Both the position numbers and the translations under genes were made by a program. The notes below the pieces were generated by a model, which saw only the letters and a list, made by a program, of their open reading frames with translations, was not told the DNA's origin and did not search any database. Of a stretch of DNA of 55,105 nucleotides, positions 38,667-42,408 are shown piece by piece (the stretch's first letter is position 1; each line of letters opens with the position of its first letter). The DNA comes from Chloroflexota bacterium (GTDB taxonomy: Bacteria > Chloroflexota > UBA11872), in NCBI GenBank assembly GCA_022824865.1, contig JAJDZD010000039.1, positions 1 to 55,105 on the forward strand, written 5' to 3'.

Positions 38667-39725
38667 ATGCGACGGATACGAACCATCCTCATGGCGGCGG
38701 TGGTGGCGCTGGTCGCTGCCGCGGCCGTTGCTACGCCGGTCTTCGCCCAATGGCCCACGACCTGCGTGGACCTGAACGACATCGTGGAGAACCATCTGGG
38801 CCGCGACAACAACGTCGGCATCTACCAGCGCGTCTTTGGCGACCAGGCCGAGGCGGCCTGCCAGGGCGATCACCGCGAGGACGTGCGCGGCGTCTTCGCC
38901 TGGGCGTTCGATCTCGCGCCACCCGCTCCGCCGCCGGCCGTCGCGGGATCGTCCCTGCCCCTGGCCAACGATGCCCTCTACTCAGCCGTGTGGCGGGGTC
39001 AGACTGAGCGGGTGCGAACCCTGGTGGCCGGCGGTCTGAACGCCAACACGCGGACCTCTGACAACGATCCGCTGATTTACTCGGCGATCTGGCGCAACTA
39101 TGTGGAGATTGTCCGCATTCTCGCCGATGCGGGCGCCAACGTGAACGCCAGGGACTCCGATGGCGAGCCAGTGCTTCGTTCAGCAATCTGGCGGAATCAC
39201 ACGGATGTCGTGCAGGTTCTGGTGGACGCCGGGGCAAACGTCGACGCCAGGGACTCCGATGGCGACCCGCTGCTCCGCGAGGCGATTTGGCGGGATCACG
39301 CGAACGTCGCGCGCATCCTGGTAGACGCCGGGGCCGACGTGAATGCCAAGGACTCCGATGGGGATCCGCTGCTCTTCGAAGCGGTCTGGCGCGGACACAC
39401 CGAGATCGTGCGGATCCTCGTCGATGCCGGGGTTGACGTGAATGCACGCGACTCGGATGGCGACACCGCTCTGGGCGAAGCGCAGTTCCGCGGTCACACG
39501 GAAATCATCCGGATCCTGCTGGCGGCACCGGCGGCTCCGACGGCGGCAGCCGATCTCGGCTGGCCCACCACCTGCGTCGACCTCAACGACATCGTCGAGC
39601 GCCACCTCGGGAACAACCAGAACGTCGGCATCTACCAGCAGGTCTTCGGCGATCAGGCCGAGGCCGGCTGCCGCGGCGACCACCGTGAGGACGTGCGCGG
39701 CGTGTTCGCCTGGGCCTTCAACTGA
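38667..39725 (+). CDS. Secreted protein: two WPTTC domains flanking six ankyrin repeats
   Basis: 352 residues. Signal peptide 1-27 (MRRIRTILMAAVVALVAAAA, cut after VFA). The first copy of a 53-residue domain is at 29-81, beginning WPTTCVDLNDIVENHLG and ending VRGVFAWAF. A linker follows, then six 33-residue ankyrin repeats at 101-298 (D-PLL-EAIWR-H-x-V-RILVDAGA-VNARDSDG). The second domain copy is at 299-351, one residue before the stop. The domain has two conserved cysteines (WPTTC and GC/AC before DHREDVR), likely a disulfide outside the cell. I recognise no family for it. The frame is open from 38559, but ATG 38667 gives the signal peptide. A terminator-like hairpin follows. Confidence 0.8.
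   Translation: MRRIRTILMAAVVALVAAAAVATPVFAQWPTTCVDLNDIVENHLGRDNNVGIYQRVFGDQAEAACQGDHREDVRGVFAWAFDLAPPAPPPAVAGSSLPLANDALYSAVWRGQTERVRTLVAGGLNANTRTSDNDPLIYSAIWRNYVEIVRILADAGANVNARDSDGEPVLRSAIWRNHTDVVQVLVDAGANVDARDSDGDPLLREAIWRDHANVARILVDAGADVNAKDSDGDPLLFEAVWRGHTEIVRILVDAGVDVNARDSDGDTALGEAQFRGHTEIIRILLAAPAAPTAAADLGWPTTCVDLNDIVERHLGNNQNVGIYQQVFGDQAEAGCRGDHREDVRGVFAWAFN
38967..39560 (+). repeat. Six tandem 99-bp units encoding ankyrin repeats
   Basis: Exactly six units of 99 bp fit between codons 101 and 298. Units 2-5 are very alike at DNA level (for example GACTCCGATGGCGA, GTGGACGCCGGGGC), so they seem recently amplified or homogenised. The first and sixth are more divergent, as capping repeats usually are. 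Confidence 0.8.
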
Positions 39726-39761
39726 TGTGACCGGGGGCGCGATCAGGGGAGTAAGTGATCG

Positions 39762-39794
39762 AAGGGTGGTCCCGCTACCGGCGGGGTCACCCTT
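39762..39794 (+). terminator. Stem-loop after the WPTTC/ankyrin gene
   Basis: AAGGGTGGTCCCGC (39762-39775) pairs with GCGGGGTCACCCTT (39781-39794) over 14 bp including G-U pairs, with loop TACCG. It begins 37 bp after the stop codon and is followed by only a weak TAAG, not a T-run. Confidence 0.55.
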
Positions 39795-39866
39795 TAAGCG
39801 CCTGACGCCGGTGCATCGGGATCGGCTTCCAAACACAGCGAGCCTCGCTCAGCGCGCATTGGTGAG

Positions 39867-40637
39867 ATGGGTGCTATGACAGCCCGAGCTCGGACCGTCC
39901 TGTTCGCCGTCGTCACCCTGGTGCTTGCCGGGCCGGTGCTGGCGTTTTTCCTGGCGCGGCTGGTTCTCAGCAACGATGCGCTGCTGCTGGACCAGGTGGC
40001 CGGACGCCGCACGCCCCTCATCGAGCTCTCGCTCTGGGCCGGCGCCGATCCCAACTACCGCGACGACGACGGCCGCTCCGCTCTCCCGGTCGCCGTGGCC
40101 TATGGCGATTTGGAAGTCGTGCCGCTCCTCCTGGATGCCGGCGCCGACGTCAACGCCCGCAACGGCGCGGGCGAGCCGGTGGCCTCCGTGGCTGTCCTTG
40201 AAGGCGAACCCGAGATCCTGGCCATGCTGCTGGACGCCGGCGCTGACCCCAATGCCAGGGACGACGACGGCATCGCCGTCGTCGTACGGGCCGTGGCAGG
40301 CGGCGACGCTGGGATTGTGCGGATGCTCCTAGACGCCGGCGCCGATCCCAACACCCTGGCGGAGGAAGACCTCTCCGTCCTGGCCATTGCCGTCGATCGC
40401 GGCCACACCGAGGTCGCGCGGTTGCTGCTCGACGCCGGCGCCGACCCCAACGGCCCCGGGATCGCGGAGCTCGTCCAGCAATCCGGCAACGCCGACCTGC
40501 TCGCGCTGCTCGAAGCCGGCGCGCTCACCGCGGAAGCCCTGTTGACCCTGGCCGAACTCGGCTTGAACGCCCTCGCCAACATCGACAAGTTCATCGAAGG
40601 CATGATCTGCATCTTCACCCTCGGCTTCGGCTGCTAG
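39867..40637 (+). CDS. Membrane-anchored ankyrin-repeat protein
   Basis: 256 residues (ATG 39867; ATG 39876 also possible). A membrane anchor or signal at about 9-34 (VLFAVVTLVLAGPVLAFFLA) is followed by about five ankyrin repeats from 45 to 215, with units such as LPVAVAYGDLEVVPLLLDAG then ADVNARNGAGEP. The end is an unusual hydrophobic tail, LLTLAELGLNALANIDKFIE followed by GMICIFTLGFGC, with cysteines near and at the terminus. It lacks the WPTTC domain of its neighbours but shares the ankyrin style. Location outside the membrane is inferred from the N-terminus; the partner is unknown. Confidence 0.78.
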   Translation: MGAMTARARTVLFAVVTLVLAGPVLAFFLARLVLSNDALLLDQVAGRRTPLIELSLWAGADPNYRDDDGRSALPVAVAYGDLEVVPLLLDAGADVNARNGAGEPVASVAVLEGEPEILAMLLDAGADPNARDDDGIAVVVRAVAGGDAGIVRMLLDAGADPNTLAEEDLSVLAIAVDRGHTEVARLLLDAGADPNGPGIAELVQQSGNADLLALLEAGALTAEALLTLAELGLNALANIDKFIEGMICIFTLGFGC

Positions 40638-40836
40638 GCCCCCAGACAGCAGGCGCCCTTCACGGCAGCTCGGCGAACGCGTCCTCTCCATTCAGAGCAG
40701 ACACGGCGGCTCGCCGTCCAGCTGCTCCGCACGGACAGTCAACGAATCTCGGTACGCTCGCCAACCCGTGCGCTCAGGAACTTCAGCCCATCTGCGAAAC
40801 GGCCCTGACCTACAGGTTGTGTCTCCCGTGACCCTG

Positions 40837-42408
40837 ATGCGGGCCATGCTGGTCGCCGTGGCAGGGGTTCTGGTGTTTGCAACGCCCGTTTTCGGCCAGT
40901 GGCCCACGACCTGTGTCGACCTGAACGACATCGTGGAGCGGCACCTGGGCAACGACCAAAACGTCGGGATCTACCAGCAGGTCTTCGGCGACGGTGCCGA
41001 ACAGGGCTGCCGGACCGACCACGTCGACGACGTACGCCGCGCGTTTGCCTGGGCGTTCGACGAAACGTCCGCATCTGGCGATCCGAATCTGCCGGAACTC
41101 GCTTGGCCGACCAGCTGCGTTGAACTCAATGACATCGTCGAGGCTCATCTGGGTAATCACCACAACGTCGGGATCTACCAGCGCGTCTTTGGCCCGGCGG
41201 CCGAGGACGGTTGCCGGCGCGATCACCGTGACGAAGTGCGTGAGGTGTTCGCATGGGCGTTTGGGGCTAATGCCTTGCCAGGACAAGCGCCGCCGCCTTG
41301 GGACGCCACGACAGGAGTCCTCAGGGACGTGGAGTATGCGATCGGCCTTCCGAACGACTGGCGTCAGACAGCCCGCCACCAGTTCCAACGAAGCGAGCCT
41401 TGGGCCATCCTTCAACTGAGGCCAACAGGGCTGTCTGATCACACGCTCAAACAGCGGGCGGAGTCGGTCCGGGACGGTCTGGAACAGGAGCTTCGCGAGC
41501 TTTGGCCAAATTACGCGCTGTTTGAACTGACGTCCTTTCGGGAGGTGACCGGCGGACCGCAGCACGCCTACGAGATCACCTACCGCATTCAGAAATCTTC
41601 GCGCTACTGCGTGGTCGTCGTCACCGAGCGAATCGGGGCCGCAACAACCTGGTACGGCCTGGACCGTGGAGTTCGCGCCATCAACTGGATGTGTGAGGCG
41701 GACGTGCCGCTTCATGGCGACTCGACCAGGGCTCTATTGGACTCCCTGCGCGTTACGGGCAAGCCCGACGACTACTACACGCAGTCGCTGATCTCCAACG
41801 GCGTGCTGATCAAGGCCGCCGCCAAGGTAAGACCGGAAGCCCTGGAAGCGGCCGCGACTGTCGTGAATTGGATGCTGGAGTCGGCTCGAAATGATGTCGC
41901 CGCGTGCATGGCCGAGGTTGAGGCCGGCCTGGCCATCATTCCAAGGGACGACTTCGTGACGGCGCTCCCTGAGTTTGCCTGGCTGAGCGGCCAGGCCGAC
42001 TTCACGGGCAGGACCTACGACTCGTTCGAGCTACGCGGACTGGGCGCCGTGCGCGGCCAGCCCGTTGCGGCAACGTCCGAAGAGTCGCTGCTTGGAATTG
42101 GCGTTCCCAAGGACCTGAGCGTGAGCGTTTACGTATTCGCGACCGCAATCCAGAACCTGTGCTTCACACCTGAAGACGCCAGGAAGTGGAGCGGCTTCTA
42201 TTCCAGGGCCTTACAGGCTGACCTCAGATCAGGATCATTCTTTATGCATGATGTGAACGCGTTCTTCGCCACGTTCACCAGCGCCCACTTCGGCGTCACG
42301 AACCAACTGGGCGACCGCTCGACCAGTCGGGACATGCTTCGCAACGACTTTCCCGACATCTTCGAATCCCTTAGCCGGATTTTCGGTTCGCCCCGCCCTC
42401 TTGCGTAA
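40837..42408 (+). CDS. Secreted protein: two tandem WPTTC domains plus unknown C-terminal domain
   Basis: 523 residues. Signal peptide 1-20 (MRAMLVAVAGVLVFATPVFG). WPTTC copies at 22-74 and 90-142, the second WPTSCVELNDIVEAHLG. From about 165 comes a larger globular region with VEYAIGLPNDWRQTARHQFQ and WAILQLRPTGLSDHTLKQR, loosely like PsbP/DcrB-type domains, although the match is weak. A helical region (about 315-520) has SQFL-free, unassigned sequence. The mature N-terminus is nearly identical to that of the 38667 protein (FxQWPTTCVDLNDIVE). ATG 40837 is used; GTG 40828 is possible. No ankyrin repeats. Confidence 0.78.
   Translation: MRAMLVAVAGVLVFATPVFGQWPTTCVDLNDIVERHLGNDQNVGIYQQVFGDGAEQGCRTDHVDDVRRAFAWAFDETSASGDPNLPELAWPTSCVELNDIVEAHLGNHHNVGIYQRVFGPAAEDGCRRDHRDEVREVFAWAFGANALPGQAPPPWDATTGVLRDVEYAIGLPNDWRQTARHQFQRSEPWAILQLRPTGLSDHTLKQRAESVRDGLEQELRELWPNYALFELTSFREVTGGPQHAYEITYRIQKSSRYCVVVVTERIGAATTWYGLDRGVRAINWMCEADVPLHGDSTRALLDSLRVTGKPDDYYTQSLISNGVLIKAAAKVRPEALEAAATVVNWMLESARNDVAACMAEVEAGLAIIPRDDFVTALPEFAWLSGQADFTGRTYDSFELRGLGAVRGQPVAATSEESLLGIGVPKDLSVSVYVFATAIQNLCFTPEDARKWSGFYSRALQADLRSGSFFMHDVNAFFATFTSAHFGVTNQLGDRSTSRDMLRNDFPDIFESLSRIFGSPRPLA

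Follow-up and report, generated by a model that had tools for sequence, protein, structure and literature searches.

The window analysed here, a 55,105-nucleotide stretch of a Chloroflexota bacterium genome (contig JAJDZD010000039.1), encodes two neighbouring, putatively secreted proteins, P0001 and P0002, which share four copies of a small module (Table 1). Both open reading frames start with a signal-peptide-like sequence. In P0001 the modules bracket a set of ankyrin repeats, and P0002 is composed of the signal peptide, a module, a 14-residue linker, a second module and a cargo region. The preliminary description of this stretch had placed the copies at 38751-38909, 39561-39719, 40900-41058 and 41104-41262, and the translations of all four, from two open reading frames, agree with it. 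Aligned with each other (n = 4, 53-54 residues), they display 35 invariant columns, the cysteines C5 and C37 included, and over 54 residues copies 2, 3 and 4 are 85, 76 and 70% identical to copy 1. The same description correctly stated that the module belongs to no recognised family (none in Pfam or NCBIfam covers it), and its neighbouring genes are also in place: an ankyrin protein between P0001 and P0002 and, judged by eye, a sensor kinase with a response regulator upstream of P0001. The ankyrin profile exceeds the Pfam cut-off in P0001 and in the intervening protein, but not in the module itself.

Table 1. Module genes and their neighbours in the window, with proteins of other loci that carry a second recurrent segment
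Feature	Position	Strand	Evidence or remarks
Histidine kinase, linked to P0001	36519..37805	+	sequence read by eye; neighbourhood comparison
NarL-type response regulator, linked to P0001	37780..38481	+	sequence read by eye; neighbourhood comparison
Putative secreted protein P0001	38667..39725	+	352 aa; signal peptide, then ankyrin repeats between two modules
Module copy 1 (in P0001)	38751..38912	+	alignment, profile search
Module copy 2 (in P0001)	39561..39722	+	alignment, profile search
Ankyrin protein with N-terminal hydrophobic segment, without module	39867..40637	+	Pfam ankyrin match
Putative secreted protein P0002	40828..42408	+	signal peptide, tandem module pair, 380-aa cargo without family match
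Module copy 3, first of tandem pair (in P0002)	40900..41061	+	alignment, profile search, AlphaFold2
Module copy 4, second of tandem pair (in P0002)	41104..41265	+	alignment, profile search, AlphaFold2
P0002 cargo	41266..42405	+	relatives L128 and L158 with HEXXH zinc-peptidase motif, absent here
HPDY-segment proteins (other loci)	L033:4864-5667, L040:3998-5566, L040:5687-7291, L091:5617-7095, L126:5827-7419

Distribution, placement and cargo of the module

A profile built from the four window copies was run on the organism's own genome and then on the genomes of relatives. In the own genome we found 30 copies in 18 proteins, distributed over 12 contigs; the window copies score with E-values of 4.4e-39 to 1.3e-37, by construction, and the 26 others down to 9.3e-22. 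The likeness of the copies is far beyond chance. The four copies in two proteins reported previously are thus real, yet they give an incomplete picture, since they represent 4 of 30 genome-wide.

Among 61 genomes (own included), 16 carry the module, namely 12 of 13 in the genus, 2 of 6 in a sister genus and 2 of 5 in another family of the order, while the profile search detected no carrier in the remaining 37. The only genus member without a match, G003, is 76% complete; carriers within the genus hold 10-33 copies each. One of the two sister-genus carriers, G015, has a single match of low quality, in a frame of 92 residues that seems to be decayed. With a 30-row profile the module was found in 16 of 24 genomes of the order, 16 of 41 of the class and 16 of 400 genomes sampled across the phylum, the last with at most 16 candidates scored per genome. 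We also scanned the genomes of 84,980 species with two peptide patterns, and the best 80 of 112 relatives, in 77 loci (hereafter named loci), were considered further. Except for L124, these loci are titled Chloroflexi or Chloroflexota (76 of 77), and they derive from 13 Chloroflexota metagenome-assembled genomes (MAGs) plus the L124 record. The latter belongs to a Rhodothermales MAG, but its whole 4865-base contig is 97% identical to the Chloroflexi record L118. Because this identity extends over the entire contig, L124 is probably mis-binned, and we consider this likelier than a transfer to Rhodothermales. As diverged forms would escape a scan by peptide patterns, the module may be more widespread than found here. 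In viral contigs and plasmids, both of which were searched, the module was not confirmed, and a virus or plasmid origin was set aside. At L099:1412-12160 five module frames follow one another, the last cut by the locus end, representing a local family expansion.

The names of some of these MAGs point to sponges. Three of the 13 bear jk18x names, matching a series that appears in a study of Caribbean Ircinia sponges (PMC9531527). The prefixes of six more, RHO or COS, agree with the sponges of another study and, judged from the names, would designate Rhopaloeides odorabile and Coscinoderma matthewsi as hosts (PMC8163846). The Chloroflexota class UBA2235 is named there among sponge lineages.

Export had been claimed for the two window proteins, and it seems to hold for the family. 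By a rule-of-thumb hydrophobicity test on 107 proteins, used in place of a signal-peptide predictor, a strongly hydrophobic stretch lies at most 14 residues before the first module in 94 proteins and 15 residues before it in 2 more; in at least one of the 94, the fragment L063, this stretch is made of ankyrin sequence instead of a signal. The other 11 constitute a single cytochrome c family, whose module pair comes after the cytochrome, behind a Pro/Thr-rich linker. With 96 of 107 proteins signal-like in this test, the copies do not occur mostly in cytoplasmic proteins, and we infer that the module proteins are exported.

As to layout, 69 of the 107 proteins have close pairs, 7 are bracketed ankyrin proteins and 31 have a single copy, the fragments L063 and L071:7400-7633 being among the last. 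The commonest linker within a pair is 14 residues long (35 of 69). The bracketed module-ankyrin-module organization is conserved in six named loci, L052-L057, and in G017 two proteins have a mid-protein pair, from about residue 290 of the frame. The position of the module is hence free (N-terminal, at the C-end, at both ends or mid-protein), which argues against a leader or pro-region. That the module aids export, folding or maturation, as a disulfide-bearing pro-region which is removed or assists folding outside the membrane, would agree with most first copies lying closely after the signal-like stretch; given this variety of positions, and the two copies in 76 of 107 proteins, we regard it as quite improbable.

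None of the common anchors that we sought accounts for these proteins. LPXTG is absent from the last 60 residues of all 107, and the lipobox pattern occurs in one, a 78-residue fragment, ahead of its hydrophobic stretch, where we judged it spurious. Hydrophobic stretches after the first module were seen in three proteins (L082, L094 and L125) and are unconvincing, that of L082 since it coincides in part with the last residues of a module. The own genome (91.9% complete) contains neither SLH domains nor sortase, for which 4 and 3 of 14 control genomes, respectively, gave matches. A distant relative of the P0002 cargo (L158, 29% identical) in G019, which lacks the module, begins instead, by eye, with a lipobox-like sequence, as does L169 in G021, a more distant relative of the trypsin type.

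The cargo is diverse. In the 18 own proteins Pfam recognised fibronectin III (3 proteins), RCC1 (2) and, in one protein each, ankyrin, trypsin-like, cytochrome c, nuclease with Excalibur, leucine-rich repeat with PD40 propeller and Cache domains; one more protein is Vps10/BNR-like, below the Pfam cut-offs. Six proteins have no family at all, and the rest represent nine Pfam kinds. For the named loci, 88 of 90 module proteins were counted (one masked and one short protein excluded). Among the first 25 of 56 families, RCC1 was found in 18 proteins, cytochrome c, SNase and Excalibur in 10 each, Vps10-like domains in 9, trypsin in 8, ankyrin in 6 and PD40 in 4. BLAST clustering of 104 cargo regions produced 23 groups, one of which merges RCC1 and trypsin proteins, and a stricter clustering 38 families, 17 with more than one member and 21 with a single one. 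The largest strict families reach 10-12 genomes; those of SNase and of cytochrome c are each present in 11. The HEXXH motif is present in 5 of 108 module proteins (L128, L031, L082, L108 and L041).

These figures bear on a layout like that of polymorphic toxins, which reportedly join a constant trafficking N-part to varied C-terminal parts (PMC3482391). A constant N-terminal delivery module with an exchangeable toxic C-terminal domain would fit the constant N-part and varied C-part seen here, the nucleases and peptidases among the cargo and the 21 of 38 strict families with a single member, so that part of the cargo does vary; but the large cargo families are common to several genomes, most recognised cargo is not toxin-like and the module is not fixed in position, being also C-terminal, and we find such a layout most unlikely.

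A second recurrent segment of about 50 residues, starting with HPDY, follows the module in five proteins (Table 1), and one exact pattern did not reveal it in frames without the module. The module-less genomes G013, G014 and G016 encode homologues of the trypsin cargo with other long N-terminal regions. Three trypsin-cargo homologues of module-less relatives (L164, L165 and L167) have a different N-terminal region of about 290 residues with seemingly internal repeats and no Pfam match; a resemblance to LGFP repeats, considered for the N-terminal regions of the trypsin proteins that lack the module, was dropped, as Pfam gave none at E<=0.5. Of the eight loci inspected in this comparison, three were set aside: L162 and L166, whose translated frame does not correspond to the matched gene, and L163, whose start is uncertain. 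The cargo of L037 had no match in seven module-less genomes, a result which shows little without a positive control.

The P0002 cargo is rare. It was found in 2 of 13 genomes within the genus; among the 24 genomes of the order these are the own genome and G001, with a third, weak and module-less match in G019. The cargo of the L128 orthologue is 76-77% identical to that of P0002. No Pfam family scores above the cut-off for the P0002 cargo, and L158 yields one sub-threshold match. Since the HEXXH zinc-peptidase motif of its two relatives, L128 and L158, is missing at the aligned place in the window copy, the cargo of P0002 may be an inactive peptidase-like domain.

Fold, conservation and evolution

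The structure prediction and the profile search proposed in the preliminary description led to no characterised family and to a predicted hairpin fold. AlphaFold2, run on the tandem pair with an alignment of 57 rows, gave a model with a predicted local distance difference test score (pLDDT) of 91.3 and a predicted template modelling score (pTM) of 0.83, with helices at residues 6-17, 25-54, 74-85 and 93-122. Each module is thereby predicted to be a two-helix hairpin, in which a turn joins a short first helix to a long second one. The linker is modelled less well (block means 75 and 65); because pTM is high in spite of this, the two modules seem to be placed against each other with confidence. 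In the model C5 lies at the start of helix 1 and C37 in the middle of helix 2, and the predicted hairpin would turn the former region towards the latter. Both cysteines are present in all 180 full copies, so that their invariance, initially noticed in four copies, extends to the family; the disulfide that had been assumed with it, from C5 to C37, is probable.

We detected no convincing family match for the module in Pfam, NCBIfam, PHROG or PDB. The 30 own copies, compared with all of Pfam at E<=5, produced two stray matches, in one copy each, neither of them to dockerin. PHROG matches (best E 0.14) were taken as chance, and a likeness to Arc-repressor-type chains, the only ones matched in the PDB profile searches, was discarded, as the best whole-sequence E-value, 1.4e-4, results from a chain with two weak stretches of i-E 0.69 and 6.7. 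A Foldseek search with the predicted pair found no match either (best E 6.3 in PDB and 3.5 among viral models), which is weak evidence because a short helical hairpin offers little to align. Word searches of the literature did not find a description of the module, a weak result as well, for words cannot find an unnamed sequence family.

Conservation was determined on 180 full copies, obtained from 185 copies in 108 proteins after exclusion of five with fewer than 51 residues (three are truncated or broken; those of L042 and L110 keep both cysteines and lack the end). Fourteen of the 54 positions are invariant throughout: W1, P2, C5, L8, N9, D10, E13, Y25, A33, E34, C37, H41, F49 and W51. In the multi-protein families the nearest neighbour of a copy is the orthologue at the same position in 125 of 152 cases (109 outright and 16 ties). 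The likeness of the modules is therefore mostly old and kept, and recent copying or gene conversion was rejected as its main cause. In comparisons of orthologues, the similarity of the module exceeded that of the cargo in 15 of 16 families and equalled it, at 0.96, in the remaining one. The ratio of non-synonymous to synonymous variation (pN/pS) was lower in the module than in the cargo for 315 of 327 pairs, which are not independent, from six families: RCC1 (141/141), cytochrome (54/55), SNase (50/55), BNR (44/45), ankyrin (19/21) and trypsin (7/10). Hence, the module changes more slowly than the cargo in all six families tested, and the constraint appears to be common to the modules and not set by what they are joined to. 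The module almost certainly represents a new, exported and strongly conserved family centred on one bacterial order.

A possible docking tag and the alternatives to it

Dockerins of cellulosomes are small, often duplicated and mostly helical modules found on many unrelated secreted proteins, and SLH domains are repeated modules which fix unrelated proteins to the envelope. Like dockerin, the module described here is shared by many unrelated secreted proteins (18 in the own genome, of nine Pfam kinds and six without a family). It differs from dockerin in being mostly N-terminal, in having two cysteines in place of the dockerin calcium loops and in the lack of any dockerin match in Pfam, for the copies and for the own module proteins alike. 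It also has no sequence match to SLH, which the own genome does not encode. The module resembles dockerin and SLH in its apparent role, not in sequence, and was assigned to neither.

We tentatively propose, at slightly short of an even chance, that the module acts as a docking tag on exported proteins, specific to this lineage and following a dockerin-like logic. In its favour are the observed number of copies, their flexible placement, the varied cargo, the conservation and the lack of the anchors that were sought, together with the predicted hairpin and packing of the pair and the lipobox-like starts of L158 and L169. After export, it would fold as a short helical hairpin clasped by the single C5-C37 disulfide, and two copies, most often 14 residues apart, would pack into one four-helix unit. 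Such a unit would bind a single conserved partner, located at the cell surface or in the matrix around the cell, or else the modules of other proteins. Enzymes, repeat proteins and sensor-like domains with no relation to each other, and a cytochrome, would thereby be kept at one place.

Several observations weigh against this proposal. No partner was found, in a search which covered SLH and sortase only. The pair is not always needed, given that 31 of 107 proteins (the two fragments among them) hold a single module. The copies of L042 and L110 are naturally shorter and miss the end with F49 and W51, and four diverged copies of G017, outside the set of 180, vary at other invariant positions and keep both cysteines, H41 being lost in one; because of these deviations not every conserved residue can be essential. 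In 27 of 152 cases the nearest copy is not the orthologue, but belongs to another family in another genome (16), to a paralogue in the same genome (10) or to the same protein (1). The trypsin family is only slightly in favour of stronger constraint on the module. Moreover, the trypsin-cargo homologues of the module-less G013, G014 and G016 show no anchor by eye, so proteins with the module are not the only ones in which an anchor is missing.

The main rival explanation is that the module binds a ligand, namely a glycan or protein in the matrix of a sponge host, and directs the cargo to the host and not to the bacterium's own surface. The invariant aromatic and charged positions (W1, Y25, H41, F49 and W51) and the frequency of close pairs (69/107) are in line with this, as are the sponge-study names of three MAGs (PMC9531527) and the prefixes of six more, which seem to fit the sponges of another study (PMC8163846). 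On the other hand, cytochrome c, Cache sensor domains and the solute-binding-type protein of L118 (by reading) would be odd cargo for a host-directed tag and no host partner is known, and we consider this explanation unlikely, though deserving of attention.

In the preliminary description, the ankyrin genes and the two-component system were taken as the setting of the module, and an adhesion or host-contact system under NarL-type control was suggested. Part of this arrangement is conserved. Of the six named loci in which the bracketed ankyrin gene is intact, five (all but L056) have the kinase and regulator ahead of it. An orthologue of the membrane-type ankyrin protein (67-79% identical) lies downstream of the P0001 gene in four of these six, about 2.6 kb away in L055, while the contig of L053 ends too early to judge; such a gene is present also in L063 and L128. 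Ankyrin proteins are further described as enriched in sponge-derived genomes (PMC8163846), and P0001 has in common with those of sponge symbionts the ankyrin repeats, here as cargo. However, the module is independent of ankyrin. One of the 18 own module proteins has ankyrin repeats (17 do not), as do 6 of 88 in the named relatives, and at E up to 1e-8 and 40% coverage the kinase-regulator pair has no match in any of the 71 remaining named loci; the regulators thus accompany the P0001 gene only, and most copies have neither ankyrin nor two-component genes as neighbours. Within the searches of the named loci and the order genomes, the full trio of P0001, the membrane ankyrin protein and P0002 was seen in this window alone. 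Kinase, regulator and P0001 therefore look like a cassette, conserved in five of six loci, and the trio as such is local. As a general role for the module the host-contact trio was accordingly rejected as too narrow, and we now regard it as a rather remote prospect. The PADLOC matches of P0001 and of the ankyrin protein next to it, PDC-M72A among them (1.1e-40 and 8.4e-29), cover the ankyrin repeats and were not counted towards a defence role.

Returning to the docking tag, it could be put in broader terms: that one apparently sponge-associated Chloroflexota order evolved its own docking system, giving rise to an extracellular coat of varied proteins that faces the host. The disulfide-clasped hairpin would pair with copies on other proteins or with a dedicated receptor and so knit together secreted enzymes, electron carriers and repeat proteins. 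This picture is speculative, and we consider it somewhat unlikely as it stands. Little is known about the means by which uncultured bacteria of sponges expose their proteins to the host or retain them in the shared matrix. One small module on 18 proteins of a single genome offers an entry point to a large share of the exported toolkit in this lineage, as the proteins that bear it can be listed by one profile. If the docking role is true, the module would represent an independent invention of the part played elsewhere by dockerin and SLH.

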